Source: a virus. From it: DNA of 64,000 nucleotides. The stretch's first letter is position 1, and the number at the start of each line of letters is the position of its first letter. The DNA lies in IMG/VR virus record IMGVR_UViG_3300034062_004313, positions 62,001 through 126,000 of that record; one strand, 5' to 3'. The position numbers and the translations under genes were made by a program. Below the pieces are notes generated by a model. That model was not told the DNA's origin. It worked only from the letters and a program-made list of their open reading frames with translations, and did not search any database. Positions 8,937-50,335 of the stretch are shown here, piece by piece.

Positions 8937-9305
8937 TTAAAGATTTTGCTCAATCCAATTCTCTCTTACTGTATAATGACAATCGGGTTTACTTTGTCCA
9001 TGTATCCATGCCTGTGTCATAAGATTATGTACTTCTTTTTTAGTATACATTTTATCAGAAGATTTATTCAATTCTTCAACAATATGTTCCTTAGCTTTAT
9101 TAAGATAATATGCTCTTTCATGATATTCAAATATACCATCATCCTTTGGATAAGCAGCATAAACAGTATTACCAAAACATTCTGCTCTAAAGTAACCATG
9201 TCTAAGTCTTAAATAACCAACTTCCATATCATTAAGAAATACATCGTATTGTTCAGGACAGGCTCCACATGTTTGAACTAGTTCTAATTCATTTGTTGTT
9301 ATCAT
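8937..9305 (-). CDS. Conserved-type gut-phage hypothetical protein
   Basis: 122 residues. The core CGACPEQYDVFLNDMEVGYLRLRHGYF followed by ECFGNTVY and YHERAYYLNKA is a pattern I associate with widespread small hypothetical proteins of Bacteroidetes phages. It ends in a helix introduced by YTKKEVHNLMTQA, which parallels WTREEVINLIRNA in the next gene. The plus-strand frame here is a shadow. Function unknown. Confidence 0.65.
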   Translation of the reverse strand: MITTNELELVQTCGACPEQYDVFLNDMEVGYLRLRHGYFRAECFGNTVYAAYPKDDGIFEYHERAYYLNKAKEHIVEELNKSSDKMYTKKEVHNLMTQAWIHGQSKPDCHYTVRENWIEQNL

Positions 9306-9314
9306 AAAATTGTT

Positions 9315-18969: not shown

Positions 18970-19587
18970 ATGTCTCAATTAAATGCCAACACTCCTTATA
19001 TATATTGTTATATAAGGAAAGAAATTACGGGATTAGAGAATGATATGGAGGGGTATATCTTTGGAGTGAAGTCTCAATTGAATTATCCTCTCCTTTTTCA
19101 TTTTCAGTCTTCTATAGGAGCTATATTTTGGAATATTCCTATAAGTGGTTTTGTGCATAATTTGGAATATGAAGATTTGGATTTATCTATTCTCGAAACT
19201 TGGGATTGCCAAAGTAATGCTATATCTGTTTTATGTTTTAAGTTTCTTCAGCATAAGAGAGTGGATGTATTTTGTAGAGATGGTATATGGAGGAGTGGAA
19301 TTTATCACTTCACTATAGATGATTACGAAACGGATGTTAATGAAATAAATGTGGGTTATTCTCAAGATATGGATAGTAAGTGTTTTCACTTTATAGAACT
19401 TGATAATGGAAGATTTTGTGTGCATCCTAATAATATATTACGTTGGCATAATGCTGATTTTATTCATCCCTACGATAAAGAAAACCCTCCAAAAATAAAG
19501 TTGAATAATCCCAGAGTTAGTTCTGAAGATGTAGATTTATCATTTGCTAAAAGTGCTTATTATTTAAAATATGAAAGAACCAAATAG
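18970..19587 (+). CDS. Hypothetical protein, first rightward gene
   Basis: 205 residues, beginning MSQLNANTPYIYCYIRKEI; beta- and aromatic-rich, with Trp-containing segments (AIFWNIPISGF, ILRWHNADFIHPYD). No domain recognised. The start is 4 nt after the -7 box, so its mRNA is probably leaderless. It overlaps the PhoH gene by 17 nt. Confidence 0.6.
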   Translation: MSQLNANTPYIYCYIRKEITGLENDMEGYIFGVKSQLNYPLLFHFQSSIGAIFWNIPISGFVHNLEYEDLDLSILETWDCQSNAISVLCFKFLQHKRVDVFCRDGIWRSGIYHFTIDDYETDVNEINVGYSQDMDSKCFHFIELDNGRFCVHPNNILRWHNADFIHPYDKENPPKIKLNNPRVSSEDVDLSFAKSAYYLKYERTK

Positions 19588-21319
19588 AGTACGTAAGAAT
19601 CCTATACAATATAATATACAGTTAGATGAAGAGCAAAAGGCTGGTAAAGCTATAATTCTTCAATATCCTATTACATTAATTACTGGTCAGGCTGGATGTT
19701 TAGGATTAGACACAGAAGTATTAATGTATAATGGAACTTTTAAAAAAGTTCAAGATATTGTTGTAGGTGACCAATTAATGGGACCAGATTCTAAGCCTAG
19801 AAATGTATTATCTTTATGTAGAGGCATAGACCAAATGTATTGGATTAGACAAAATAGAGGAATTGATTATAGAGTTAATAGTAATCATATACTATCATTA
19901 ATAAGAGTTCAAACTGCAAAATATCCAAGAATTGCAGTTGATGGTGTAAGAAAACAAGATTTTTCAAGACCTCCTATTCATCCTAAAAAGGAAACAGTTA
20001 CAAATATAGAAGTTAATAGATATTTTGATTTGGGTTCTAAAAAACAATATATGGGATATATTTCAAATTGTCTTTTCTTTGAAGAAAAGAATTTATCAAT
20101 TGACCCATATTATTTAGGACTTTGGTTAGGAGATGGAAGTAAAAATTGTATAAGAGAAATTACAGCAGCAGATTCTGAAATAATAAATTATTTAATTGAC
20201 AAAGGAGCAAGAGCTAAATTAAATAGTAAATATGCATGGTTATTACCAATAAATTTAGAAACAGTTGAGTCTTTTAAAGATTTATTTTCAATTACAAATT
20301 CTTCAAAATTACCTGAAAAATTTATACCTAATGATTATTTGTTTAACTCAAAAGAAAATAGATTAAAATTGTTAGCTGGTTTATTAGATAGTGATGGACA
20401 TTATATAAAAGATGGAAAATATTATGAAATAATAGTAAAAAATAAAAGATTAGCAGATAATATAACATTTCTATGTAGAAGTCTTGGTTATAAAACTAAT
20501 CAAAGAGACAAGAAAGCTAGTATGAAAAGAGATGATGGTACTATATATAAATGTATTGTTCAAAGAATATCTATAATGACAGAAGATATTATACCTGTTA
20601 TTATAGATAGAAAAAAGAATGAAATTGGTTCTGATTTTAAAAATAGAAAATACACAGGATTCAAAATAGAAAAAGATATTATTGATAATTACTATGGGTT
20701 TACACTTGATGAAGATAATCTTTTTTTATTAAAGGACTTAACCGTTACTCATAATTCAGGTAAAAGTTTAGTTGCTCTACAGACTGGATTGGATTTTGTT
20801 AATAGTAAGATGGGTAAGATGGTATTAACACGTTCTTTAGTAGAGGTTGGAGATGAATCAATGGGTTATTTACCCGGAGATGCTAAAGAAAAGTTAAGTC
20901 CTTATTTAGAAGCAGCAATGGAGAATCTTGAGAAATGTATGTCAAGACAAGAGATTTTAAAGCTTGTTAATGATAATAGGATTGTTGCTGGTCCTGTAAA
21001 CTTCATGAGAGGTAAGACTGTAGAGGATGTGCTTATTGTAGAAGAGGGACAAAATCTTACTATAGGACAGATGTTAGCAGTTTTAACAAGAACTGGTAAG
21101 GAGGGTAAGATTATTATTACTGGTGACTTGGCTCAAAAGGATAGAAGAAAGGAAAGAAGTTATGGAGCATTGGACTTAGCAATTGATTTAGCTAAGGACT
21201 TACCTGAATATATAGGATGGGTAAAACTTAATGGTCAGCATAGACATGATGTGGTTAGTAAGATAAATGACTTAATTTATTCTGATAAATATAAAAATAG
21301 GGTATTCCCTGAAAACTAA
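19571..21319 (+). CDS. phoH: PhoH-like P-loop ATPase with inserted intein
   Basis: 582 residues; 229 remain after removing the intein (residues 43-395). Exteins join as GQAG-SGKSLVAL, a Walker A motif. Later motifs fit PhoH: Walker B VEDVLIVEEGQNLT, GDLAQKD (compare GDLTQ) and GQHRHDVVSKI. PhoH-like proteins are ATPases of poorly known role, some with RNA helicase or RNase links, and are common in phages. The gene overlaps both neighbours. ATP binding requires intein splicing, because the intein interrupts the P-loop. Confidence 0.85.
   Translation: MKEPNRVRKNPIQYNIQLDEEQKAGKAIILQYPITLITGQAGCLGLDTEVLMYNGTFKKVQDIVVGDQLMGPDSKPRNVLSLCRGIDQMYWIRQNRGIDYRVNSNHILSLIRVQTAKYPRIAVDGVRKQDFSRPPIHPKKETVTNIEVNRYFDLGSKKQYMGYISNCLFFEEKNLSIDPYYLGLWLGDGSKNCIREITAADSEIINYLIDKGARAKLNSKYAWLLPINLETVESFKDLFSITNSSKLPEKFIPNDYLFNSKENRLKLLAGLLDSDGHYIKDGKYYEIIVKNKRLADNITFLCRSLGYKTNQRDKKASMKRDDGTIYKCIVQRISIMTEDIIPVIIDRKKNEIGSDFKNRKYTGFKIEKDIIDNYYGFTLDEDNLFLLKDLTVTHNSGKSLVALQTGLDFVNSKMGKMVLTRSLVEVGDESMGYLPGDAKEKLSPYLEAAMENLEKCMSRQEILKLVNDNRIVAGPVNFMRGKTVEDVLIVEEGQNLTIGQMLAVLTRTGKEGKIIITGDLAQKDRRKERSYGALDLAIDLAKDLPEYIGWVKLNGQHRHDVVSKINDLIYSDKYKNRVFPEN
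19697..20755 (+). mobile_element. LAGLIDADG intein in the PhoH P-loop
   Basis: 353 residues from Cys43 to Asn395 of the precursor. N-terminal splice block CLGLDTEVLMYNG; C-terminal block LKDLTVTHN followed by Ser as +1 residue, i.e. Cys1, penultimate His, terminal Asn and Ser+1, all needed for splicing. Two LAGLIDADG homing-endonuclease motifs: YYLGLWLGDGS (Asp188) and LLAGLLDSDGHYI (Asp273, Asp275). All key residues are present, so it is probably active in splicing and possibly in homing. Confidence 0.92.
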
Positions 21320-41987: not shown

Positions 41988-43133
41988 ATGGCTTGTAGTC
42001 CTTATAATCCTTGTCACACACCAACTTGTGACACATGTAATACAGTAAATCCTTGTTATGACAATTGTGGTTGTTTAAATCCAACTACATTTGATTGTAT
42101 AACAAATTTCAAAAAAGCATATAACAATATCCCTTTAGAAATAAATGCTACAGGGCAAGATATGCTTGATAATCTTGATGAAACAGTAGCTGAAATAGAA
42201 AGTAATCTATATAAAGTAAAGGTGGATGATAGTGATACTTGTCCTGATACACTCTTAGATAAGATTACAGCAGGTAGCAATATTACAGTATCTGTAGCAG
42301 GAAGTGGATGTAATAGAAAACTTACTATAACAGCAGGGAATGGTATAACAACTGCTCCTGATATATATGCTAAAGTTTCATCTAATGACACTACATCTGA
42401 TTATCTTGGTAATAAATTTGTAGATGGTACATATGTTAAGAAATCTGTAAATAGTCCCGGTGGAAATGAAACAATTGATTTTGACATTACAATAGCTGAT
42501 TTAATCTCTACTGATAGTGGAAACCAATTAGGACAAGGAGTAGATGGTAAATTAAAAACTTTGTTCTCTGCACCTGATGGTTCTGAAACTAAAATTAACC
42601 CTGTTGCAAATTCTGGAATTACCCTAACTGGTACAGGTACTAATGGTGACCCTTATCTTATAGGAACTAATGGAGCATTATTTGCTGTTCAACCATATAC
42701 AGATGGTGTATGGAGAACATTAACCTTTAACAATGGTAGCAATGCTAATGTGACACTTAATTCTCAATCTGTTAAATATCGTATGAGATACGATGGTTCT
42801 GTAGAGTTTAAAGGAAGCTTAAATTATAGTGTAACATTCAATGTAGCAAGTACTAATAAGATAGCTATAACAGCAGCTAACATCACTACAGGAGGCTCAA
42901 CAAACCTTCCTTCAACAGCCTTTGATAGGGTTGCTAATCTAAGACATTATATGACGTTCAGTAGCCCTAATACAATAAGTGCTACACCAAAATTAACAGG
43001 TTATAATGTAAACATATTAGCTGCTGCTTTAAATAGTCCAGCACCAATTCAAATAGAATTTATGAATGACACTGCTGAAACTAAAAATATAGTAGTAACA
43101 ATGGATGGAGCAATATATCATCCTAATATTTAA
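41988..43133 (+). CDS. Putative fibre protein with Cys-rich N-terminus
   Basis: 381 residues. The first 30 residues hold nine Cys (ACSPYNPCHTPTCDTCNTVN, then NPCYDNCGC), similar in style to the 40,208 gene. The body carries typical fibre repeats: VSVAGSGCNRKLTIT and GITLTGTGTNGDPYLIG. A C-terminal domain with GVWRTLTFNNGSNANVTLNS could bind receptor. Ends 50 nt before a terminator. Confidence 0.65.
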   Translation: MACSPYNPCHTPTCDTCNTVNPCYDNCGCLNPTTFDCITNFKKAYNNIPLEINATGQDMLDNLDETVAEIESNLYKVKVDDSDTCPDTLLDKITAGSNITVSVAGSGCNRKLTITAGNGITTAPDIYAKVSSNDTTSDYLGNKFVDGTYVKKSVNSPGGNETIDFDITIADLISTDSGNQLGQGVDGKLKTLFSAPDGSETKINPVANSGITLTGTGTNGDPYLIGTNGALFAVQPYTDGVWRTLTFNNGSNANVTLNSQSVKYRMRYDGSVEFKGSLNYSVTFNVASTNKIAITAANITTGGSTNLPSTAFDRVANLRHYMTFSSPNTISATPKLTGYNVNILAAALNSPAPIQIEFMNDTAETKNIVVTMDGAIYHPNI

Positions 43134-43183
43134 GAATTTAGAAAGAACGTAGCTTTTTTTGGTTTTTGCTGCATATGTTTTTC

Positions 43184-43206
43184 GGAGCCGTTCTCGGCTC
43201 TTTTTT
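43184..43206 (+). terminator. Intrinsic terminator of fibre genes
   Basis: GAGCCG-TTCT-CGGCTC (43,185-43,200) followed by TTTTTT. Confidence 0.85.
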
Positions 43207-43229
43207 CTTTTTATTAACATTTTAAATTG

Positions 43230-43237
43230 TAATTTTG
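43230..43237 (+). promoter_or_regulatory. -7 box of a leaderless promoter
   Basis: TAATTTTG followed by exactly 4 nt and the ATG at 43,242. The -33 region is only T-rich. Same spacing as at 18,970, 45,931 and 46,135. Confidence 0.55.
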
Positions 43238-43241
43238 TATT

Positions 43242-43496
43242 ATGATAATAACAGATAACATATTCTATTTAGATAATGGAGTAGAAAGACAAATAAATGT
43301 ATTTAACGAAAGTGACCCACACTATAGATGTTTTGAATCAGATGGACAGAAACAAATAATCTTTGGAAGAAGTTCATTTGTAAAAACTGAAAATGGAGAA
43401 GTAGATTTCTTCTCTTTAAGCAAAGAAGAAAAAGATAAATTCTGTAATAACACTAATTTTATAAAAACTTATAAAAAATATGATATACATAGGTAA
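43242..43496 (+). CDS. Small acidic hypothetical protein
   Basis: 84 residues, MIITDNIFYLDNGVERQINVF ... EDFF-type acidic body with two Cys (YRCFESDG, KFCNNTN). Last protein gene before the tRNA island; its mRNA is likely leaderless. Unknown function. Confidence 0.6.
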   Translation: MIITDNIFYLDNGVERQINVFNESDPHYRCFESDGQKQIIFGRSSFVKTENGEVDFFSLSKEEKDKFCNNTNFIKTYKKYDIHR

Positions 43497-43543
43497 AGAA
43501 TTAAGATGTTGGAAACACGTTAACAATGAATTAACACAACATA

Positions 43544-43716
43544 TTTGATTATATAAAATTATTACACTATATTACAATATAATTATGAAATACGTAGTAA
43601 CACATACAACATGTCCACAGTGGTTTACACCGACAATATCGGGAGGGGCTTTGTATGTATACTAAGAAATAGCTGTGTAGTAACATCAACCCTCTGAGAA
43701 ATCGGAGGGTTTTTTA
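43544..43716 (+). promoter_or_regulatory. Attenuator A, upstream of tRNA block A
   Basis: Promoter-like TTTG (43,544-43,547), 20-nt spacer, TATATTAC (43,568-43,575; six of eight). Then leader ORF A, then segment 1 GGAGGG (43,642-43,647), segment 2 CCCTCTG (43,690-43,696) and segment 3 CGGAGGG (43,703-43,709) followed by TTTTTT. Segments 2 and 3 form a 7-bp terminator; 1 and 2 can pair over 6 bp instead. The sensor codons of the leader end 6 nt before segment 1, so ribosome position selects the structure. Block A tRNAs start at 43,720. Confidence 0.8.
43585..43665 (+). CDS. Leader peptide A of tRNA attenuator
   Basis: 26 codons. Codons 6-17 read THTTCPQWFTPT: only Thr, His, Cys, Pro, Gln, Trp and Phe, with all seven present. 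These are exactly the amino acids of the seven tRNAs downstream (Pro, Thr, Phe, Gln, His, Trp, Cys). Codons also fit the anticodons: ACA five times for UGU, CCA and CCG for UGG, TTT for GAA, CAG for UUG, CAT for GUG, TGG for CCA and TGT for GCA. Product itself is presumably without function. Confidence 0.88.
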   Translation: MKYVVTHTTCPQWFTPTISGGALYVY

Positions 43717-43719
43717 TTT

Positions 43720-43813
43720 CTAGTTGTGGACGAGAGGTTTATGTCATTAGTCTTGGAAACTAATATCTGCACACAGATGGTGTGGGTCAAGGGTTCGACT
43801 CCCTTCAACTAGA
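43720..43813 (+). tRNA. tRNA-Pro(UGG) with enlarged variable region
   Basis: Acceptor CTAGTTG / CAACTAG, discriminator A. Anticodon stem TTAGT / ACTAA with loop CTTGGAA gives UGG. T arm AAGGG-TTCGACT-CCCTT. The variable region is about 25 nt and holds a hairpin ATCTG-CACA-CAGAT before a normal-looking GGGTC. The long arm could suggest a serine tRNA, but A73, the UGG anticodon and the Pro codons in leader A support Pro. Confidence 0.75.
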
Positions 43814-43823
43814 CTTTTAATTT

Positions 43824-43896
43824 GCCTTACGAAGCTTTTATGGATGAAGTGTACTCTTGTAAAGTACGGAACTGGACTCGATTTCCAGCTAAGGCT
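43824..43896 (+). tRNA. tRNA-Thr(UGU)
   Basis: Acceptor GCCTTAC / CTAAGGC (one mismatch), anticodon arm GTACT-CTTGTAA-AGTAC gives UGU. T arm CTGGA-CTCGATT-TCCAG, with CTCG rather than TTCG. Confidence 0.85.
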
Positions 43897-43902
43897 CAAA
43901 TT

Positions 43903-43975
43903 GGAGAAGAAGCTAACTTGGTAGAAGCGTTAGACTGAAAATCTAAAGGAGTTGGTCCGAAACCAACCTTCTCCG
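43903..43975 (+). tRNA. tRNA-Phe(GAA)
   Basis: Acceptor GGAGAAG / CTTCTCC, anticodon arm TTAGA-CTGAAAA-TCTAA gives GAA, T arm GTTGG-TCCGAAA-CCAAC. Confidence 0.9.
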
Positions 43976-43977
43976 CT

Positions 43978-44053
43978 AAATACTTAATGAAACAATAAAG
44001 GAACAAAGGGGTCCGGGTAGAAATACGTTAGCGCCCATTGATTTAAGTATTTT
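43978..44053 (+). promoter_or_regulatory. Internal structured spacer with T-rich tail
   Basis: AAATACTTAA and TTAAGTATTT form a perfect 10-bp stem around 54 nt, followed by TTTT. Inside is GGGG-TCC-GGG ... GCGCCC. A three-codon frame (ATG AAA CAA TAA) lies at the 5' arm just before tRNA-Gln. It may be a second internal attenuator or a weak terminator; the tRNA-Gln gene begins at once. Confidence 0.4.
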
Positions 44054-44057
44054 TTAT

Positions 44058-44129
44058 TCCTATGTGGTGTAATGTAACATCCACGCCTTTGAAGCGTTGA
44101 GATTGGTGGTTCAAGTCCATCTATAGGAA
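44058..44129 (+). tRNA. tRNA-Gln(UUG)
   Basis: Acceptor TCCTATG / TATAGGA, discriminator A, D arm GTGTAATGT-like, anticodon loop CTTTGAA gives UUG. T arm GGTGG-TTCAAGT-CCATC. Confidence 0.85.
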
Positions 44130-44130
44130 C

Positions 44131-44205
44131 TGTCTAAGTGTTCTGACTGGATTCAGATGAATGACTGTGAATTATTCAAAAAGGGTTCGAATCCCACTTA
44201 GACCC
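44131..44205 (+). tRNA. tRNA-His(GUG)
   Basis: Acceptor about GTCTAA / TTAGAC, C discriminator as expected for His, anticodon arm AATGA-CTGTGAA-TTATT gives GUG. T arm ends at TTCGAAT. Terminal CCA is partly encoded; ends are accurate to 1-2 nt. Confidence 0.8.
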
Positions 44206-44210
44206 AATAT

Positions 44211-44283
44211 ATAGGTACTCATGGCTGGCGTGATAAACAATCTCCAAAATTGTGATTTGTTGAATCGTTCTCAACTACCTATG
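44211..44283 (+). tRNA. tRNA-Trp(CCA)
   Basis: Acceptor ATAGGTA / TACCTAT, discriminator G, anticodon arm ACAAT-CTCCAAA-ATTGT gives CCA. T arm GTTGA-ATCGTTC-TCAAC; the T loop departs from TTCG. Confidence 0.85.
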
Positions 44284-44339
44284 CTTTATAGGTCTATATA
44301 CCTATATTTATAGATTATAGGTTTTAAAGGCTATAATTT
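44284..44339 (+). other. Spacer with TATAGGT hairpin
   Basis: ATAGGT-CTATAT-ACCTAT is a hairpin, followed by an imperfect repeat TTATAGATTATAGG. It lies between tRNA-Trp and tRNA-Cys and might be a processing signal or a tRNA remnant. Confidence 0.3.
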
Positions 44340-44415
44340 GTCCAGATACCTAATATTGATTTTGGGATAGGTCTGCAACACCTATTAAATATCGGTTTGA
44401 TTCCGATTCTGGACT
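44340..44415 (+). tRNA. tRNA-Cys(GCA)
   Basis: Acceptor GTCCAGA / TCTGGAC with discriminator T, typical for Cys. Anticodon arm TAGGT-CTGCAAC-ACCTA gives GCA. T arm ATCGG-TTTGATT-CCGAT. Last tRNA of block A. Confidence 0.88.
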
Positions 44416-44430
44416 CTATTAAAAATAAAT

Positions 44431-44619
44431 TTTTTTATTTGAAAAAGATTTCGTATATTTGCTGTATAAATAATAAACATTCAACAATGCAACTTATAAA
44501 TATGATAGTGGATAACGGTATTGGAGCAAACGAGAAGTTTGGCTTCAGGTATTCTATTGTCGTATAATTACTTACTAACCCGATAAAGAATCCTGAGGCC
44601 CATCGCTTCGGGATTTTTT
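44431..44619 (+). promoter_or_regulatory. Attenuator B, upstream of tRNA block B
   Basis: -7 box TATATTTG at 44,454-44,461. Leader ORF B is followed by segment 1 GGCTTCAGG-t-ATTC (44,541-44,554), which pairs with GAATCCTGAGGCC (44,588-44,600) in a 13-bp helix with one bulged base. The same segment 2 instead forms the 10-bp terminator AATCCTGAGG / CTTCGGGATT followed by TTTTT. Mutually exclusive antiterminator and terminator are explicit in the sequence. tRNA-Lys starts at 44,624. Confidence 0.9.
44487..44567 (+). CDS. Leader peptide B of tRNA attenuator
   Basis: 26 codons. Codons 4-17 read INMIVDNGIGANEK: only Ile, Asn, Met, Val, Asp, Gly, Ala, Glu and Lys, all nine present. These are exactly the amino acids of block B. 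Both ATA and ATT codons occur for Ile, and block B encodes Ile(GAU) plus two CAU tRNAs, so one CAU tRNA is probably the lysidine-type Ile2 that reads ATA. Antiterminator strand begins 4 nt after the sensor codons. Confidence 0.9.
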   Translation: MQLINMIVDNGIGANEKFGFRYSIVV

Positions 44620-44623
44620 GTTT

Positions 44624-44698
44624 AATCTCGTAGCAAAATGTGGCTTTGCTTCAGCCTTTTAAGCTGACTAAAAATGGGTTCGACTCCCATCGGGATTA
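44624..44698 (+). tRNA. tRNA-Lys(UUU)
   Basis: Acceptor AATCTCG / CGGGATT, anticodon arm TCAGC-CTTTTAA-GCTGA gives UUU. T arm ATGGG-TTCGACT-CCCAT. Confidence 0.88.
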
Positions 44699-44704
44699 CT
44701 AAAT

Positions 44705-44777
44705 GGCTCTTTAGCTCAGTGGTAGAGCTTCGTTTTTACATGACGAGAAAGCACTTGTCCGATTCAAGTAAGAGCTA
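44705..44777 (+). tRNA. tRNA-Val(UAC)
   Basis: Acceptor GGCTCTT / AAGAGCT, anticodon arm TCGTT-TTTACAT-GACGA gives UAC. T arm ACTTG-TCCGATT-CAAGT. Its 3' end is 1 nt before the RlpA start codon. Confidence 0.88.
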
Positions 44778-44778
44778 C

Positions 44779-45108
44779 ATGAAATATATATTAGGAATAC
44801 TGTTCTTATTAATTATAGGAACAGCAACAAAAACAGGAATTGCAAGTTATTATCATAACAAGTTTCAAGGAAGGAAAACTGCTAGTGGTGAATTATATGA
44901 TAAACATAAATTAACAGCAGCTTCTAATCAATATAAACTTGGTGATAGTGTAAGAGTAACAAATACTAAGAATGGTAAAAGTGTAAATGTTACAGTAAAT
45001 GACCGTATGGCTAATAATGGAAGACTAATTGATTTAAGTAGAAGTGCTGCTGATAGTCTTGGTTTTATTAAGGATGGTTTAGTTGTAGTTAAAGTTAGTA
45101 TATTATAA
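44779..45108 (+). CDS. RlpA-like double-psi beta-barrel, exported
   Basis: 109 residues from the ATG at 44,779. An upstream in-frame start at 44,674 would run through two tRNA genes and is rejected. N-terminal signal peptide (KYILGILFLLIIGTATKTG). The rest matches RlpA/DPBB: GIASYYHNKFQGRKTASGELYDKHKLTAA, LGDSVRVTNTKNGKSVNVTVNDR and GRLIDLSRSAADSLG. The conserved Glu of SGELYD and Asp of VNDR, key in RlpA, are present. RlpA-type proteins cleave or bind peptidoglycan (lytic transglycosylase), so a lysis or cell-wall role is likely. It lies between tRNA-Val and tRNA-Asn in block B, so it shares attenuator B. Confidence 0.85.
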   Translation: MKYILGILFLLIIGTATKTGIASYYHNKFQGRKTASGELYDKHKLTAASNQYKLGDSVRVTNTKNGKSVNVTVNDRMANNGRLIDLSRSAADSLGFIKDGLVVVKVSIL

Positions 45109-45113
45109 ATATC

Positions 45114-45187
45114 TGTTTTGTAGCTCAGTGGCCTAGAGCGTGAAGCTGTTAACTTCAGGGTCGTGGGTTCGAATCCCATCAGGACAG
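45114..45187 (+). tRNA. tRNA-Asn(GUU)
   Basis: Acceptor TGTTTTG / CAGGACA, discriminator G, anticodon arm TGAAG-CTGTTAA-CTTCA gives GUU. T arm GTGGG-TTCGAAT-CCCAT. Confidence 0.9.
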
Positions 45188-45192
45188 CATAT

Positions 45193-45277
45193 TGTGGGAT
45201 GGTGTAATTGGTAACACGCAAGGCTCATAACCTTGAGACAGAAAATGCTAGCAAGGGTTCGAATCCCTTTCCCGCAA
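45193..45277 (+). tRNA. tRNA (CAU) with long variable region
   Basis: Acceptor TGTGGGA / TCCCGCA, discriminator A, D arm GTGT-AATTGGTA-ACAC, anticodon arm CAAGG-CTCATAA-CCTTG gives CAU. T arm AAGGG-TTCGAAT-CCCTT. The variable region is about 17 nt, unusual for Met. Could be Met or Ile2. Confidence 0.8.
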
Positions 45278-45282
45278 CACAA

Positions 45283-45355
45283 GCAGTATAGGCAGATTGG
45301 CTTATGCACCTCACTTCCAATGAGGACATGGTGGGTTCGATTCCTACATGCTGCA
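45283..45355 (+). tRNA. tRNA-Gly(UCC)
   Basis: Acceptor GCAGTAT / ATGCTGC, anticodon arm CCTCA-CTTCCAA-TGAGG gives UCC, T loop TTCGATT. Confidence 0.88.
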
Positions 45356-45402
45356 CAAAAATTATATTATGAAAAATTCTTTAAAAGAAGGTGAAGAGAT
45401 AT

Positions 45403-45475
45403 ACTCTCATCTTCTAGTTGGTCAGGATAACACACTTTCAATGTGTTGACACGGGTTCAAGCCCCGTTGGGAGTG
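45403..45475 (+). tRNA. tRNA-Glu(UUC)
   Basis: Acceptor ACTCTCA / TGGGAGT, discriminator G, anticodon arm ACACA-CTTTCAA-TGTGT gives UUC. T loop TTCAAGC. Confidence 0.9.
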
Positions 45476-45485
45476 CTTTAAAAAT

Positions 45486-45559
45486 GGTAGATGGGTCTGC
45501 TGGATGAAGATGTCGGTCTGTCGAACCGAAGATGATGGGTTTGAATCCCATATCTACCG
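45486..45559 (+). tRNA. tRNA-Asp(GUC)
   Basis: Acceptor GGTAGAT / ATCTACC, discriminator G, anticodon arm TCGGT-CTGTCGA-ACCGA gives GUC. T loop TTTGAAT. Confidence 0.9.
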
Positions 45560-45564
45560 CATTA

Positions 45565-45639
45565 GGACTTGTAGCCAAGTTGGTAAAGGCCCTTGACTCA
45601 TAATCAAGAGATGCAATGGTTCGAGACCATTCAAGTCCA
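45565..45639 (+). tRNA. tRNA (CAU), Met or Ile2
   Basis: Acceptor GGACTTG / CAAGTCC, discriminator A, anticodon arm CTTGA-CTCATAA-TCAAG gives CAU. T loop TTCGAGA. Normal variable region. Confidence 0.88.
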
Positions 45640-45644
45640 CATAT

Positions 45645-45716
45645 AGGAATATAGTAGAAGGGTTATCACAATTGACTGATACTCAATTAATATAGGTTCG
45701 AATCCTATTGTTCCTA
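45645..45716 (+). tRNA. tRNA-Ile(GAU)
   Basis: Acceptor AGGAATA / TGTTCCT, discriminator A, anticodon arm ATTGA-CTGATAC-TCAAT gives GAU. T loop TTCGAAT, T stem TATAGG-type. Confidence 0.88.
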
Positions 45717-45721
45717 CATTT

Positions 45722-45794
45722 GGGGATAAAGCTCTAGCGGATGAGCATCTGCCTTGCACGTAGAAGGTTACGATTTCGAGTGTCGTTATCTCCA
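45722..45794 (+). tRNA. tRNA-Ala(UGC)
   Basis: Acceptor GGGGATA / TATCTCC, discriminator A, anticodon arm TCTGC-CTTGCAC-GTAGA gives UGC. T arm ACGAT-TTCGAGT-GTCGT. Last tRNA of block B. Confidence 0.85.
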
Positions 45795-45816
45795 CATAGG
45801 GGTTCGGAAAATAATT

Positions 45817-45856
45817 AGCTACATCTCTTTATTAATAAGGGTTGTAGCTTTTTTAT
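45817..45856 (+). terminator. Terminator of tRNA block B
   Basis: AGCTACA and TGTAGCT form the base of a long stem with CTTTATT / AATAAGG inside, followed by TTTTTT. It ends block B transcription. Confidence 0.85.
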
Positions 45857-45895
45857 TGTCTCAAATATTGTAATAATTTGCGACATAATTTATTT

Positions 45896-45926
45896 TTTGT
45901 CAGGTTATAACCTTTCTTTATCTTTG
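45896..45926 (+). promoter_or_regulatory. Promoter, leaderless gene
   Basis: TTTG at 45,896-45,899, 19-nt spacer, TATCTTTG at 45,919-45,926, then TTTT and the ATG at 45,931. A near-perfect TTTG/TAnnTTTG match. Confidence 0.8.
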
Positions 45927-45930
45927 TTTT

Positions 45931-46098
45931 ATGAATTGGCATATACTACCTGTAAATGATATAGAATATCATGAAGAATCTACCACTTGTAAGTGTGAAC
46001 CACAAGTAGAATTTATAGAAGGAGATATGCTAATTATACAAAACTCTTTTGATGGTAGAGAAGGAGTTGAATGGGTAAATGAAATTTTAAATAAATAA
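45931..46098 (+). CDS. 55-residue conserved small protein
   Basis: Start MNWHILPVNDIEYHEESTTC, then CKCEPQVEF and MLIIQNSFDGREGVEWVNE. The patterns NWHxLPxND, a C-x-C and NSFDGRE are familiar from short hypothetical proteins in many Bacteroidetes genomes. Presence in a phage likely reflects exchange with the host. Function unknown. Its mRNA is probably leaderless and the start is fixed by the promoter spacing. Confidence 0.75.
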   Translation: MNWHILPVNDIEYHEESTTCKCEPQVEFIEGDMLIIQNSFDGREGVEWVNEILNK

Positions 46099-46264
46099 TT
46101 TGGAAAATTCAAAATAATTTCGTATATTTGCTTTATGAAAACATTATCACTATATAGTTCCTCAAGTTATCTCTTATTAAGAGACAGGGATTGTATTGTG
46201 TAAATAGCTATAAGCTTTTAGCTCCCCTAACAATCCCTTGTCTTTCCAGATGAGGGATTTTTTA
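46099..46264 (+). promoter_or_regulatory. Attenuator C, upstream of tRNA block C
   Basis: Promoter TTTG (46,099-46,102), 20-nt spacer, TATATTTG (46,123-46,130), N4, ATG of leader C. Segment 1 GAGACAGGGATTGT (46,181-46,194) can pair with ACAATCCCT-t-GTCTT (46,230-46,244) over about 13 bp with one bulge. Alternatively ATCCCT (46,233-46,238) pairs with AGGGAT (46,253-46,258) followed by TTTTTT, the terminator. The sensor codons end 1 nt before segment 1. tRNA-Leu starts at 46,267. Confidence 0.9.
46135..46203 (+). CDS. Leader peptide C of tRNA attenuator
   Basis: 22 codons. Codons 4-15 read LSLYSSSSYLLL, twelve residues in a row drawn only from Leu, Ser and Tyr. The block downstream encodes Leu(UAG), Leu(UAA), Ser(UGA), Ser(GCU) and Tyr(GUA). 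Codons match: TTA and CTA, TCA and AGT, TAT. A ribosome at the stop codon would cover segment 1 and permit termination. Confidence 0.92.
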   Translation: MKTLSLYSSSSYLLLRDRDCIV

Positions 46265-46266
46265 TT

Positions 46267-46339
46267 GGCTCTATGACGTAATCGGCAACCGTCTTGGCTT
46301 TAGACCCCAAGTTTTCCAGTTCGAATCTGGATAGAGCTA
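46267..46339 (+). tRNA. tRNA-Leu(UAG)
   Basis: Acceptor GGCTCTA / TAGAGCT, discriminator A. Anticodon stem CTTGG / CCAAG with a 9-nt loop (or 7 nt with one C-C mismatch) centred on TAG. Short variable region, unlike normal leucine tRNAs. T arm TCCAG-TTCGAAT-CTGGA. Confidence 0.75.
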
Positions 46340-46394
46340 CAAATTAGCAGCCCTCTATGGATAATTCTATTGACGAATAGAATATGGGCAAAAT
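46340..46394 (+). other. Spacer with 8-bp hairpin
   Basis: ATTCTATT-GACG-AATAGAAT within GCCC ... GGGC forms an extended stem-loop. No T arm, so not a tRNA. Possibly a processing or control hairpin between the two Leu tRNAs. Confidence 0.35.
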
Positions 46395-46477
46395 ATTCCT
46401 GTGGTGAAATGGTGAGACACGGCAGACTTAAAATCTGCTACGGAGAAACGTTGCTGGTTCGAATCCAGTCAGGAATA
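46395..46477 (+). tRNA. tRNA-Leu(UAA)
   Basis: Acceptor ATTCCTG / CAGGAAT, discriminator A, anticodon arm GCAGA-CTTAAAA-TCTGC gives UAA, long variable arm TACGGAGAAACGTT, T arm GCTGG-TTCGAAT-CCAGT. Confidence 0.9.
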
Positions 46478-46480
46478 CTT

Positions 46481-46565
46481 AGCAGAATGTCAGAGTGGTT
46501 TATTGTGATAGTCTTGAAAACTATTGGGTGTAAAAGCTCCTTGGGTTCGAATCCCAATTTTGCTG
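46481..46565 (+). tRNA. tRNA-Ser(UGA)
   Basis: Acceptor AGCAGAA / TTTTGCT, discriminator G, anticodon arm ATAGT-CTTGAAA-ACTAT gives UGA, long variable arm, T loop TTCGAAT. Confidence 0.88.
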
Positions 46566-46569
46566 CAAT

Positions 46570-46658
46570 AGAAGATTGTGTGAGTGGCTTAAACAACCAG
46601 TTTGCTAAACTGGCGAGGGATTAAAACACCTCCATTGGTTCAAATCCAATATCTTCTG
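46570..46658 (+). tRNA. tRNA-Ser(GCU)
   Basis: Acceptor AGAAGAT / ATCTTCT, discriminator G, anticodon arm CCAGT-TTGCTAA-ACTGG gives GCU, long variable arm CGAGGGATTAAAACACCTC, T loop TTCAAAT. Confidence 0.9.
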
Positions 46659-46663
46659 CATAT

Positions 46664-46756
46664 TGTGTTGTAACGGCAGTAGACTGTAAATCTACTCTGC
46701 ATAACAAATTGTCGTACTGGTCTCGCAGTAAGAAGGTTCGAATCCTTTCAACACAA
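46664..46756 (+). tRNA. tRNA-Tyr(GUA), D arm missing, giant variable region
   Basis: Acceptor TGTGTTG / CAACACA, discriminator A, anticodon arm AGTAGA-CTGTAAA-TCTACT gives GUA, T arm GAAGG-TTCGAAT-CCTTT. Only about 7 nt (TAACGGC) lie between acceptor and anticodon stem, so no D arm fits. The variable region is about 34 nt and holds CTGC / GCAG and TACTG-GTCTCG-CAGTA. Leader C contains two Tyr codons, supporting Tyr identity. Confidence 0.7.
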
Positions 46757-46782
46757 CATTAACTTATTATTAACTATAGACA

Positions 46783-46814
46783 TTTGACTATATAAAGTAA
46801 ATAGTCTATTTTTG
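46783..46814 (+). promoter_or_regulatory. Promoter of the small ncRNA
   Basis: TTTG at 46,783-46,786, 20-nt spacer, TATTTTTG at 46,807-46,814. Confidence 0.75.
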
Positions 46815-46819
46815 TATTG

Positions 46820-46957
46820 TACAAATTCCCAACCGTCATAGGAGATTTGTATTTAATTAACAATAACTATATATTCGATTGATGTAACTTTGTTCTTAGG
46901 AACGCAACTTGACGGTTGGGACCCCTTGTACTTAATTGTATGAGGGGATTTTTTTTG
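46820..46957 (+). ncRNA. Small structured RNA with its own terminator
   Basis: About 135 nt. CCCAACCGTCA (46,828-46,838) and TGACGGTTGGG (46,910-46,920) are perfectly complementary over 11 bp. A strong terminator follows: CCCCTTGTAC / GTATGAGGGG, loop TTAATT, then eight T. An inner GTTC-TTAG-GAAC hairpin lies near the 3' arm. A weak GGAG-TTG start (YLINNNYIFD) is inside, but with no matching target downstream. Likely a free-standing sRNA. Confidence 0.75.
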
Positions 46958-47316
46958 CAGACATCCGAGGTTTTTCTTTCCTTCTTTTACGTCCTCCACA
47001 AAAATAAAAGAGTGTCATTAAGATAGTATAGTATATTACACTTGGTATATTATATGATAGGATGTAGAAAAATCAGCAATGTCTAAGGTGACAACTGGAC
47101 CTGAACGAAATTATCAGCAAAAACTACATTCCTCCGTGAAAAATAAAATCATCTTATAGCTGATAATTATTTGTAGATGATTGGCAGGACATGGGAATCT
47201 TAGGTTGACAATATGTTTATAGGAGTATGTGTTAACTATAAATACATTATCCCAACAGGGGAAGACCTTGTTCAGGATAGACCCCCTTATGTAAATTAAC
47301 AATAAAATGTAAAACT
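46958..47316 (+). other. Gene-free region with long-range repeats
   Basis: 359 nt without an ORF of note. ATTATCAGC (47,110-47,118) and GCTGATAAT (47,159-47,167) are complementary; TCATCT / AGATGA lie around the second. The two stems would compete, as in a control RNA. TTGACAATATGTTTATAGGAG occurs but is not a Bacteroides promoter. Possible leader of the gene at 47,317. Confidence 0.4.
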
Positions 47317-47622
47317 ATGAAAAACCACAAAATGACATCATATCAATTCATGATGTTAATGCAAGAATTACCAAATCCAATGTATTATGCTAGAAATGGA
47401 GCTAATGTAGGATTTAGAGTAAAAGTAGGATATTTAAAGAAGTCCATTGATAATACTCCTACAATATTAATAAATCCTAATTCTCAACCTATGAAGATGG
47501 CAGAAGTTGAACAGGTAGAATTTGAATTAGTTCCGAACAATACTATTTGGTATTGGCAACCTGTAGAACCAATTACTATAATAACATTAGATAAGAAAGA
47601 GTACATTAAAAATTGGGAATAA
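47317..47622 (+). CDS. Hypothetical protein
   Basis: 101 residues. Helical start (TSYQFMMLMQELPNPMYYARNG), then beta strands. C-terminal half looks like a small barrel (VEFELVPNNTIWYWQPVEPITII). Overlaps the next gene by 10 nt. Confidence 0.55.
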   Translation: MKNHKMTSYQFMMLMQELPNPMYYARNGANVGFRVKVGYLKKSIDNTPTILINPNSQPMKMAEVEQVEFELVPNNTIWYWQPVEPITIITLDKKEYIKNWE

Positions 47623-47930
47623 TGAATATAATAAAATGGTATAAAAGAGTATTTAGAATTCTTACTATAGAAGAATGTAAAGAATTAGGATTAGTACATT
47701 CTCATAATATATATGGTGATAGTATTAATCATTTAAATTGTAGAAGTATTTGGAAAGATGAAAAGGATAGAACATATAGGTGTGAAAGTTTAATACCTAC
47801 TATAGGAGTACTAGATTTATGGATTTTAAAAATGAAAAATCAAGATAAAGTACAACCAATAACTCAAGAAGAATATAATAAAATAAGAGATGAAGAATTT
47901 GAAAGGCTCAAGACTTTATATTCGCCTTAA
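47613..47930 (+). CDS. Hypothetical protein
   Basis: 105 residues. Basic start (MNIIKWYKRVFRILTIEEC), Cys at KCESL-like positions, and a helical acid end (EYNKIRDEEFERLKTLYSP). Unknown role. Confidence 0.5.
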   Translation: MGIMNIIKWYKRVFRILTIEECKELGLVHSHNIYGDSINHLNCRSIWKDEKDRTYRCESLIPTIGVLDLWILKMKNQDKVQPITQEEYNKIRDEEFERLKTLYSP

Positions 47931-47942
47931 CAAATAATAGTG

Positions 47943-47950
47943 TAATTTTG
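47943..47950 (+). promoter_or_regulatory. -7 box upstream of 47,968 gene
   Basis: TAATTTTG matches TAnnTTTG; 17 nt separate it from the ATG. The -33 region is not clear. Confidence 0.5.
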
Positions 47951-47967
47951 GCTTCTAAATAAAAATC

Positions 47968-48288
47968 ATGAAAGTATTAACAGAAGGACATTATTATGAA
48001 CTAGAACATTTTGAAAAAGATGAATCGGGTAGTTCAGAAAGTTTACAATTTATCGAAAAGGTTCCAAAAGGTGAAGGGAAAGTACAAGATTTAGTAACAG
48101 TAAATAATGGAACTACAAATGAAGAAGTTCTTAAAGTTCTAATAAATAGAATGAACTATTTACAAGCAAAATTTCCATGTAGAGAAAATGCTATTGTAAT
48201 TACAAAACTTGAAGAAAGTCTAATGTGGTTAGAAAAAAGAACTGTTGATAGAATAGCTAGAAATGTAGAAGGTAAACAATTAAAATAA
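47968..48288 (+). CDS. Acidic hypothetical protein
   Basis: 106 residues, first half beta-rich (GHYYELEHFEKDESGSSESLQF), second half helical (FPCRENAIVITKLEESLMWLEKRTVDRI). The helix ending RTVDRIARNVEGKQLK is of a kind seen in many phage early proteins. Unknown function. Confidence 0.55.
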   Translation: MKVLTEGHYYELEHFEKDESGSSESLQFIEKVPKGEGKVQDLVTVNNGTTNEEVLKVLINRMNYLQAKFPCRENAIVITKLEESLMWLEKRTVDRIARNVEGKQLK

Positions 48289-48296
48289 AATAAACT

Positions 48297-48512
48297 ATGA
48301 AAAAACAATTATTTACGTATGCTGTATTATTCCATCAGCATGAAGAGAAAGAGGGAAAATTGGAATACAAAGAAACACTTATTCTTGTAGAACCAAAAGT
48401 GATTTTAGCAAAGAATAGTAATGAAGTAGCATTCAAAGCTACAAGAGACGTACCAGAACAATATGCAGGATTTTCAGAAAATGTAGAAATTATAGTACGC
48501 CCTTTTAAATAG
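48297..48512 (+). CDS. Small hypothetical protein
   Basis: 71 residues. Beta-rich (QLFTYAVLFHQHEEKEGKLEYKETLILVEPKVILAK), the pattern of a small transcription- or DNA-binding barrel; weak evidence. The reverse frame is a shadow. Confidence 0.55.
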   Translation: MKKQLFTYAVLFHQHEEKEGKLEYKETLILVEPKVILAKNSNEVAFKATRDVPEQYAGFSENVEIIVRPFK

Positions 48513-48543
48513 CTCCCCCTTAATGTGGGATAGTGGGAGCAAA
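48513..48543 (+). promoter_or_regulatory. Hairpin covering the next start codon
   Basis: GCTCCC (48,512-48,517) pairs with GGGAGC (48,535-48,540) and the ATG at 48,523 lies in the loop. It may control translation of the 59-residue protein. Confidence 0.45.
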
Positions 48544-48702
48544 GGAGTATGGGAACAATTAGTAGACCCACCTAAATATAAAAGTACTTTCCAAAATTAT
48601 ATGGGTACAACTACAAATTTAGTAGGACAAGCAATAAACACTTTGACAACAGGAACATCAATATCATATAACATGGCAGATGCAATGTCATTCACAAATT
48701 AA
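48523..48702 (+). CDS. 59-residue hypothetical protein
   Basis: MWDSGSKGVWEQLVDPPKYK ... ending MADAMSFTN. Thr- and Asn-rich second half. Fits between neighbours without overlap. Unknown. Confidence 0.6.
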   Translation: MWDSGSKGVWEQLVDPPKYKSTFQNYMGTTTNLVGQAINTLTTGTSISYNMADAMSFTN

Positions 48703-48711
48703 AATCAAATT

Positions 48712-48876
48712 ATGAAAACACTAACAAATCTATTTACAAGCAACCCATCTTACATGAAATGGGGTAATGAAAGAATTGCAAAAAGAACAGGGCTGAAACC
48801 AAAAACAGTAGAGAAATTCAAAAAGAATCCCTTGTATAAGATAATGAAAACCCAATATCTTAACGAGATTAATTAG
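48712..48876 (+). CDS. 54-residue helix-turn-helix-like protein
   Basis: MKTLTNLFTSNPSYMKWGN ... with NERIAKRTGLKPKTVEKFKKNP, a helix-turn-helix pattern. The same sort of motif opens the gene at 49,019 (SKAKLAQRLGTTIDDITESRFKVKQ). Possible DNA-binding regulator. Transcription through it leads to leader D and tRNA-Arg. Confidence 0.6.
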   Translation: MKTLTNLFTSNPSYMKWGNERIAKRTGLKPKTVEKFKKNPLYKIMKTQYLNEIN

Positions 48877-48879
48877 GAA

Positions 48880-48909
48880 ATGTCGCAAAAAAGGCGTATA
48901 TTGTTATGA
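48880..48909 (+). CDS. Leader peptide D of tRNA-Arg attenuator
   Basis: ATG at 48,880, reads MSQKRRILL then TGA. The two Arg codons, AGG and CGT (48,892-48,897), lie on the 5' arm of the terminator that precedes tRNA-Arg(UCU), which reads AGG. A ribosome waiting for charged Arg tRNA would mask that arm. Shorter than leaders A-C, so weaker on its own, but it completes the pattern. Confidence 0.7.
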   Translation: MSQKRRILL

Positions 48910-48922
48910 TATGCGCTTTTTT
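48894..48922 (+). terminator. Attenuator D terminator before tRNA-Arg
   Basis: GCGTATAT (48,894-48,901) pairs with ATATGCGC (48,909-48,916) with a 7-nt loop, then six T. It sits 4 nt upstream of tRNA-Arg and overlaps leader D. Confidence 0.8.
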
Positions 48923-48926
48923 ATTT

Positions 48927-48998
48927 GGCTCCTTAGTTAAATGGATATAACCGCAGAATTCTAATCTGCATTTGGGAGTTCGATTCTCTCAGGGGCTA
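48927..48998 (+). tRNA. tRNA-Arg(UCU)
   Basis: Acceptor GGCTCCT / AGGGGCT, discriminator A, anticodon arm GCAGA-ATTCTAA-TCTGC gives UCU. T loop TTCGATT. It stands apart from the other 22 tRNAs and supplies the twentieth amino acid. Confidence 0.9.
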
Positions 48999-49018
48999 CG
49001 AAATCTTAAAAATAAATT

Positions 49019-50335
49019 ATGATTATAACACAAACAATGCAAAAGTTTATTGACAATCCGAAGATGTTAGAGAGTGGATATTGCTCAAAAGCAAAATTAG
49101 CTCAAAGACTTGGAACAACAATAGACGATATTACAGAATCAAGGTTTAAAGTGAAACAAATGATGTCTTCATTAGACCATGCTCAAGAGTTCTTTAAAGA
49201 ATTAAAATCAGAAATTGTTAATGAACATACTACAAGAGTAGATAATGAAAAGGGTACTATAACATCGGATGTAGAAACTACATTTGAACCCAAGAATGAT
49301 ATTGAATTAGCTGAATTACATAAGATTGATTTAACAAAATACAAAATAAGTACATATTGGTCTAAACTAAAGAGCAATGGTAAATTCACTTCATCTGTAT
49401 TAGCTACATTAAGAAATATTGATAAGGATATTCCTAAACAAAAAGAATCATTAATAGAAGAAATAGATGAATATTTTGGTAGTAAAAAAGCTATTGAAAA
49501 TTATAGATTCTTCACAAGAGAAATTGATAAGGATAGAAAAACTGCTAAAAATACAGATGGTCAACTATTAGAAATATCCATTCCTGATTTACACATTGGT
49601 AAAATGTCTCATAGAGAAGAAACAGGGGAAGATTATGATTTAAAAATTGCATCTGCAAGATATAAGAATGCTATAACTCAACTATTAAAAACAGCCAATT
49701 TAGATAATGTATCTGATATATTACTACCCATTGGTAATGACTTGTTCAATGTAGATAATCAGTTCTCAACTACTACAGGTGGTACACCACAGGATTGTGA
49801 TAGTAGGTTCCACAAGATGGTAGGAGCAGCAAAAGAACTCCTTATAAATACAATAACAGGGTTAAGTGCATTTGCAAGAGTACATGTTCTTATAGTACCA
49901 GGCAATCATGATGAAGTTACAACATTTATGTTAGGTGAAATATTAGAAGCATGGTTTCATAATGATAGTAACATAACTGTAAATAATACAGCAAAACTTA
50001 GAAAATACTTCCAATTTGGAAAGAATTCTTTCCTTTATACTCATGGAGACAAAGAAAAACATGGGGATTTAGGATTGATATTTGCTACAGAAGAACCTAG
50101 ACTTTGGGCTGATACTAAATACAGATTTGTAAAACTTGGTCATCTTCACAAGCAAAAGAAAATAGAATATATAACAACAGACACACTTCAAGGGTTCCAA
50201 ATAGAAATACTTCCATCACTAAGTTCTGCTGATAAGTGGCATTATGGAAAAGGTTTCTTAGGAGCAAAGCAAGCAAAAGCCTATCTCTATGATAAAGAAC
50301 TTGGGGAAATTGCACAGTATACACACACTGTTTAA
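49019..50335 (+). CDS. Calcineurin-like metallophosphoesterase
   Basis: 438 residues. Metal site motifs in order: PDLHIGK (Asp190, His192), GNDLFN (Asn240, Asp241), GNHDE (Asn296, His297, Asp298), THGDKEKHGD (His342) and GHLHK (His375, His377). N-terminal ~60 residues have a helix-turn-helix pattern (SKAKLAQRLGTTIDD). Such phage phosphoesterases act as nucleases or phosphatases; substrate unknown. It starts 20 nt after tRNA-Arg and ends at a terminator. Opposite-strand frames are shadows. Confidence 0.85.
   Translation: MIITQTMQKFIDNPKMLESGYCSKAKLAQRLGTTIDDITESRFKVKQMMSSLDHAQEFFKELKSEIVNEHTTRVDNEKGTITSDVETTFEPKNDIELAELHKIDLTKYKISTYWSKLKSNGKFTSSVLATLRNIDKDIPKQKESLIEEIDEYFGSKKAIENYRFFTREIDKDRKTAKNTDGQLLEISIPDLHIGKMSHREETGEDYDLKIASARYKNAITQLLKTANLDNVSDILLPIGNDLFNVDNQFSTTTGGTPQDCDSRFHKMVGAAKELLINTITGLSAFARVHVLIVPGNHDEVTTFMLGEILEAWFHNDSNITVNNTAKLRKYFQFGKNSFLYTHGDKEKHGDLGLIFATEEPRLWADTKYRFVKLGHLHKQKKIEYITTDTLQGFQIEILPSLSSADKWHYGKGFLGAKQAKAYLYDKELGEIAQYTHTV

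Follow-up and report, generated by a model that had tools for sequence, protein, structure and literature searches.

A transfer RNA (tRNA) island in a virus of the IMG/VR database carries short leader peptides that spell out the amino acids of the tRNAs encoded behind them. The source record, IMGVR_UViG_3300034062_004313, comprises 155,874 bases, and its terminase and portal match crAss-like families. The stretch analyzed, referred to as the window, is 64,000 nucleotides long (positions 62,001 to 126,000 of that record), and the island lies at 43.5-49.0 kb within it. Three short open reading frames (ORFs), leaders A, B and C, each stand ahead of an intrinsic terminator and a block of tRNA genes. 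Very probably, each of these blocks forms an operon of its own, and ribosome-mediated transcription attenuation controls it. The sequence match between leader and block, the tracking of this match across phages and the agreement between leader codons and tRNA anticodons are seen directly, while the terminators and antiterminators are predicted folds. A fourth candidate, D, is excluded from the system.

Leaders and tRNA blocks in the window

Leader A (MKYVVTHTTCPQWFTPTISGGALYVY) is encoded at 43585..43665 on the plus strand, as are all leaders, signals and tRNA blocks described here for the window. The codons that name the tRNAs, termed the sensor, span 43600-43635, and the sensor THTTCPQWFTPT consists of exactly the amino acids of block A (7/7). 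A possible -7 promoter element, TATATTAC at 43568..43575, is an imperfect and weak match to the Bacteroidota element TAnnTTTG. Just past the sensor, the 5' strand of an antiterminator predicted by folding lies within the coding tail (43639..43647), and an intrinsic terminator with its T run is found at 43688..43717 (dG -15.2). Leader B (MQLINMIVDNGIGANEKFGFRYSIVV, 44487..44567) has sensor codons at 44496-44537, and its sensor, INMIVDNGIGANEK, covers 9/9 amino acids of block B. The sequence scan places a Bacteroidota -7 element, TATATTTG, at 44454..44461. The antiterminator 5' strand of this leader (44541..44558, within the coding tail) is predicted to form 16 pairs with the 5' arm of the terminator at 44585..44623 (dG -18.3). 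Leader C (MKTLSLYSSSSYLLLRDRDCIV, 46135..46203; sensor codons 46144-46179) is preceded by the same element, TATATTTG, at 46123..46130, with the ATG 4 nt further on. Its sensor, LSLYSSSSYLLL, contains 3/3 amino acids of block C and an own-box codon for all five isoacceptors. Fourteen pairs are predicted for its antiterminator strand, again in the coding tail (46181..46194), and the terminator lies at 46229..46266 (dG -14.6).

An earlier sequence-only reading of this DNA had claimed that the sensors of A-C hold all of, and only, the amino acids of the tRNAs downstream, and that the segment after each sensor can form an antiterminator that excludes the terminator. All three sensors are indeed complete, with a content that is better described as almost only these amino acids, and in the predicted folds of A-C the terminator and the antiterminator cannot coexist. 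The match was also scored against chance, using every ATG or GTG ORF up to 200 nt before each terminator, its own tRNA set and 400 dinucleotide shuffles. With the ARAGORN tRNAs alone, the best ORF before terminators A, B and C gave p = 0.0025, which is the floor of 400 shuffles. By the same scoring, the own tRNA set fits each of the three leader ORFs better than nearly all other sets.

The island encodes 23 tRNAs for all 20 amino acids, and every amino acid is confined to one block. ARAGORN called 19 of them; a relaxed ARAGORN cut-off added Thr and His, Rfam added Tyr, and Trp was found by eye. Block A (43720..44416; ARAGORN, relaxed ARAGORN, and Trp by eye) is composed of Pro (43720-43814), Thr (43824-43897), Phe (43903-43976), Gln (44058-44130), His (44132-44205), Trp (~44210-44285) and Cys (44340-44416). 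The tRNA-Trp is a by-eye reading only, with the loop CTCCAAA between 4-bp arms, and is backed by the block order in relatives. Block B (44624..45795) is composed of Lys, Val, an RlpA-like ORF, Asn, Met, Gly, Glu, Asp, a second CAT tRNA, Ile and Ala. Block C (46267..46757; ARAGORN, with Rfam for Tyr) is composed of Leu(UAG), Leu(UAA), Ser(UGA), Ser(GCU) and Tyr (46664-46757). ARAGORN also called a tRNA-Arg(UCU) at 48927..48999.

Candidate leader D (MSQKRRILL, 48880..48909) stands before this tRNA-Arg and is not established. The sequence-only reading had counted it as a fourth leader with its Arg codons on the terminator arm itself. The position holds: an intrinsic terminator at 48888..48922 (dG -15.5) overlaps the ORF, and the codons AGG CGT sit on its arm. 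No TAnnTTTG element occurs within 90 nt upstream of D, no antiterminator was found for it, and it has no counterpart in any relative. Arg-richness equal to that of D occurs in 2 of the 21 small ORFs beside window terminators, D itself counted. Having no promoter element, antiterminator or homologue, and an Arg content that may be due to chance, D was left out, and the earlier count of four leaders stands for A-C only.

Leaders in other phages

Beyond the window, approximately 26 further leaders are found in 13 other phage records, including isolated Cellulophaga, Tenacibaculum and Maribacter phages. The three leaders of the window are part of the total of 29 leaders in 14 records, from which L163, L146 and two near copies (Calle_1 and phi4:1) were omitted. 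The isolated phages with leaders span Pervagoviridae, Assiduviridae, Pachyviridae, Lightbulbvirus, unclassified phages and crAss-like relatives. Within this sample, the system is seen only in Bacteroidota phages or their relatives.

The nearest named phage is Lbo-JY46 (PP438436), which has three leaders. The one beginning MINSIDIRNIDIVCAEGVNKCSCG precedes Lys, Cys, Val, Arg(UCU), Asn, Met, Gly, Glu, Asp, CAT, Ile and Ala; the one beginning MKNFNTYYSLSLSLSQ precedes Leu, Leu and Ser; and the one beginning MKITRQHTQFWFPTG precedes Pro, Thr, Phe, Gln, His, Arg(ACG) and Trp. Cys and Arg belong to different blocks in Lbo-JY46 and in the window, and their codons are present in the corresponding Lbo-JY46 leaders. 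The same three kinds of leader as in Lbo-JY46 are found in IMG/VR contig 3300043403_000051. Cellulophaga phages phi17:2 and phi38:1 have leaders, and their blocks are Pro-Glu-Gln-His-Leu-Leu-Arg, Ala-Lys-Ile-Gly-Met-Asp-Thr-Val-Arg-CAT/Ile and Tyr-Ser-Ser-Asn-Trp-Phe-Cys. In Cellulophaga phi10:1, the leader MLKKWSYSCFSYSFKNGEVIL lies ahead of Tyr-Trp-Phe-Ser-Cys. Tenacibaculum phage Gundel_1 has two leaders, and Maribacter phage Panino has three across two distant islands. The amino acids that switch block between phages are Cys, Thr, Phe, Arg, Trp, Glu, Asn and Leu, and the leaders switch with them. Relatives whose leaders do not follow their tRNAs had been named by the sequence-only reading as the observation that would speak against it; when the relatives were examined, the leaders tracked their blocks in at least 14 records and through many rearrangements.

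A scan of viral contigs that was blind to tRNAs used the promoter-plus-start motif TATATTTGCNNTATGAAAACA. Nine of the ten small ORFs that it found with a terminator behind them lead tRNA genes, one of these (L163) being seen in part. The nine include Gundel_1 again, one L052 repeat, two copies of one leader and the fragmentary L163. Among bacterial matches to the motif, 0/10 are such leaders. Two block compositions are new: L159 has the leader MKTQSLYLSFCYSLISGKTGV before Tyr, Phe, Leu, Ser, Ser, Cys and Leu, and L212 has MKTQNQYEHFFNYSSNRTRIGI before Glu, Tyr, Gln, Phe and His. Eight leaders were scored later, including two from L052 that were found before the motif scan, and they cover 45 of 46 block types. 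The leader ATG mostly lies 4-7 nt past a TAnnTTTG-like -7 element, and translation of the leaders may take place on nearly leaderless transcripts.

The recorded host of Lbo-JY46 is the cyanobacterium Leptolyngbya. Its terminase, promoters and leaders resemble those of Bacteroidota phages, and the host assignment deserves a check. In the same phage, a homing endonuclease gene (L023 35873-36834, minus strand) adjoins, and may split, tRNA-Glu. In Gundel_1, an HNH gene (L037 7462-7968) lies between the terminator and the tRNAs of a regulated block.

Match between sensors and tRNAs

For statistics, the sensor was defined by RNA structure alone, from codon 3 to the first antiterminator base, in 22 leaders. 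These sensors contain 131 of the 144 amino-acid types of their blocks. Residues that belong to the block set make up 256/320 of the sensors versus 80/213 of the tails. The association between leaders and blocks (phi 0.71) exceeds the maximum of 20,000 permutations (0.375), and 0/20,000 within-genome permutations reached the observed value.

The match extends to codon boxes. The Arg box follows the anticodon in all 11 sensors concerned: tRNA-Arg(UCU) is paired with AGR codons (5/5) and tRNA-Arg(ACG) with CGN codons (6/6). The CGN share of Arg codons in these phage genomes is 5-39%. Every leader of a block with two Leu tRNAs has both TTR and CTN codons, and every leader of a block with two Ser tRNAs has both TCN and AGY codons. 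This suggests that the thing sensed is the individual charged tRNA species and not general amino-acid starvation, because codon boxes that match isoacceptors fit the sensing of each charged isoacceptor, and starvation alone would not require such a match. The sequence-only reading had proposed attenuation of the trp, his and leu kind. This remains the best description of A-C and does not extend to D, with the correction that individual charged tRNA species may be what is sensed.

Predicted RNA switch

Intrinsic terminators lie 17-29 nt past the leader stop codon in nearly all leaders, with one at 49 nt. In the 21 curated leaders (D excluded), the terminator 5' arm can pair over 7-16 bp with the segment of the coding tail just past the sensor. 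Compared with dinucleotide-shuffled tails, this duplex is individually below 0.05 in 14 of 22 leaders (the 21 curated leaders and one L052 leader), and the combined Fisher p is ~1e-16, uncorrected for relatedness. Co-transcriptional folding was modelled with a ribosome in three states. With the ribosome in the sensor, the antiterminator is predicted to form before the 3' arm is made at most stall positions in every leader (22/22). With the ribosome at the stop codon, the terminator and no antiterminator is predicted, again in 22/22. With no ribosome, the sensor is predicted to pair with the tail and the terminator forms; this is a predicted 1:2 hairpin in A-C, and the pair count across leaders is a loose measure.

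We infer the transcription start, leader translation, stalling and read-through from the sequence, and the switch would work as follows. Transcription would begin just upstream of the leader ATG. When all sensor codons are decoded fast, the ribosome would reach the stop codon and cover the antiterminator strand in the tail, resulting in the terminator and no tRNAs. When no ribosome is present, the sensor RNA would pair with the antiterminator strand and the terminator would form, making off the default state. When any charged tRNA named by the sensor is scarce, the ribosome would stall upstream and leave the tail to pair with the terminator 5' arm. Formation of this antiterminator would permit polymerase read-through, and the whole block would be made, including the scarce tRNA. 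The sensor would be an OR-gate over up to approximately ten amino acids, and the new tRNAs would relieve the stall, providing negative feedback.

Several observations weigh against attenuation. Leaders of like blocks share descent, and the tests are not fully independent. The block rearrangements between phages carry the weight of the comparative argument. Some leaders do not agree fully with their blocks. The block C leader of Lbo-JY46 has Tyr and AGY codons, and its block is without Tyr or Ser(GCU) tRNAs. Both tRNAs are likely a recent loss from this block, since the homologous block in 3300043403_000051 carries both Tyr and Ser(GCU). Gundel leader 2 names His and tRNA-His is missing from its block, L212 and phi38:1 leader 1 name Asn and tRNA-Asn is missing from theirs, and Panino leader 2 is without Val and internal Met. 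At the level of RNA, 8/22 tail duplexes are not significant individually. Lastly, the terminator beats the antiterminator at equilibrium in many leaders, and therefore the switch must be kinetic.

Alternative explanations and the signal sensed

It is very improbable that the small ORFs encode functional peptides, or are mere remnants, and match the tRNAs only through common descent or composition. Some of the match is inherited, as the resemblance among leaders of like blocks shows, but an amino acid that changes block changes the leader too, and the permutation and shuffle tests oppose this explanation. In addition, the new blocks of L159 and L212 are matched, and the tail past the sensor matches far less than the sensor does. 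A T-box or another tRNA-binding riboswitch would read uncharged tRNA directly, without translation, and would resemble the proposed switch in responding to tRNA charging through an antiterminator. Hardly any probability can be given to this possibility: no T-box match in Rfam was found within 43000-49600 at E up to 1, the match is confined to one reading frame over 10-17 codons, and the antiterminator strand lies within the coding tail.

Less certain than attenuation is its physiological trigger, which may be that certain tRNA species are lost or run short in the infected cell, and not amino-acid starvation. Sensing of tRNA shortage itself, whether host tRNAs are lost, are cut by a defence such as PARIS or fall short of an unusual codon demand, is favoured because extra tRNA cannot cure an amino-acid lack and because the codon boxes follow isoacceptors. 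A response to host amino-acid starvation, like that of the trp and his attenuators and with the tRNAs merely as the genes that profit, is rather unlikely. The predicted architecture equals that of amino-acid operon attenuators, yet more uncharged tRNA does not relieve a lack of amino acids, making tRNA synthesis a poor answer, and amino-acid sensing needs no match at the level of isoacceptors. Tentatively, the same switch may serve counter-defence, detecting the removal of individual host tRNAs by anticodon nucleases (for example PARIS AriB or PrrC) or by turnover of host tRNA and making replacements. The codon boxes, which track the isoacceptor of the block beyond the amino acid, and the complete sets of 20 amino acids are consistent with this purpose. 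Phages are known to withstand tRNA-cleaving defences by means of their own tRNAs, and those of phage T5 overcome tRNA cleavage by PARIS, which makes counter-defence a plausible conjecture (PMC12409363). However, amino-acid limitation or a mismatch in codon demand could yield similar sequences, starved isoacceptors can differ in charging, and tRNA cleavage in these hosts is without direct evidence. In its broadest form, a possibility we consider with reserve, the 20 amino acids spread over three or four attenuated regulons, each turned on by the lack of any of its tRNA species, would constitute an isoacceptor-resolved, genome-wide tRNA supply that senses and answers host tRNA cleavage or depletion.

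Comparison with known systems

Known attenuators control the amino-acid operons trp, his, leu, thr and ilv, and pheST of Escherichia coli. Like the trp-type attenuators, the phage leaders have a short ORF with regulatory codons, alternative 1:2, 2:3 and 3:4 folds, and an intrinsic terminator before the first gene with a default off state, the folds and the default being predicted here. Unlike them, the phage leaders control tRNA genes rather than genes for biosynthesis, transport or synthetases. A phage leader names up to approximately ten amino acids with isoacceptor-matched codons, compared with one to three in the trp type. Further differences are the occurrence in Bacteroidota phages, the antiterminator strand in the coding tail and an ATG nearly at the presumed 5' end. 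In T-box riboswitches, too, tRNA charging decides between antiterminator and terminator; the phage leaders would differ in sensing through translation, and they have no T-box match in Rfam.

Phage tRNA arrays, such as those of T4, T5, vibriophages and mycobacteriophages, are similar in that their tRNA clusters are interrupted by small genes and homing-endonuclease genes. In a short test, no leader matched the arrays of T4, Myrna, Thalassa, PAU or immuto to a comparable degree, and the papers found on phage tRNA arrays describe no leader regulation. The same short test misses phi10:1, whose block is split by ARAGORN, and a single negative is not proof of absence. One Thalassa site (p = 0.005, 3/4 types) was judged to be chance among the many sites tested. 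No leader was found in the tRNA region of csAssE-Sib or in immuto, and the PhiCrAssBcn22 stretch has no annotated tRNAs. Relatives reached through the exonuclease gene beside the island had no tRNAs, the RlpA-like protein as query gave no matches, and the phi10:1 capsid protein retrieved no relatives from genome contigs. The tRNA-Glu of phi38:1 at 30.6 kb was rejected as leader-controlled; a terminator is present, and what lies before it is simply where an ordinary gene ends. A terminator lies ahead of the large tRNA arrays of IMG/VR L024 and L027, as does a conserved small ORF, MFSAI..P......VDY.ST.. (L024 rc 9249-9341; L027 rc 9589-9681), whose amino acids do not match the tRNAs and which is possibly a different kind of leader.

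No earlier report of leader-controlled phage tRNA genes was found in the full-text literature, a search that left preprints and most subscription papers outside. The Cellulophaga tRNA blocks were noticed in 2019 as conserved blocks, without leaders (PMC6409571), and the Panino paper lists the tRNAs with the leader feature unmentioned (PMC11590407). This would be the first attenuation on tRNA genes known to us, with composite sensors of up to approximately ten amino acids. The timing and tuning of phage tRNA genes are poorly understood, and in these phages the tRNAs that a given switch would sense can be read off its sequence. Because the leaders occur in isolated, laboratory-grown phages, each of them offers a test of why phages have tRNA genes. 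The codon boxes suggest that individual tRNA species are sensed, which may link the system to tRNA-cleaving defences. The leaders would also be natural multi-input translation sensors.

Other features of the island and the window

In the window and at least four relatives (L031, L029, L036 and L033), the 20 amino acids are split nearly without overlap among three or four tRNA blocks. The gene for the RlpA/DPBB-like protein lies inside block B (window 44674-45108), and block B of Lbo-JY46 and that of 3300043403_000051 each have a relative at the corresponding position. After tRNA-Tyr, the region at 46780-47316 of the window is non-coding, with an inverted repeat (CCCAACCGTCA / TGACGGTTGGG), a terminator at ~46918-46951 and no Rfam match. 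A small protein encoded at 47968-48288 weakly matches the Acb2/Tad1 hairpin domain of the anti-CBASS sponge family, with a score below the cut-off. Elsewhere in the window, a Hint/LAGLIDADG homing-endonuclease intein splits a PhoH-like protein (19571-21319).

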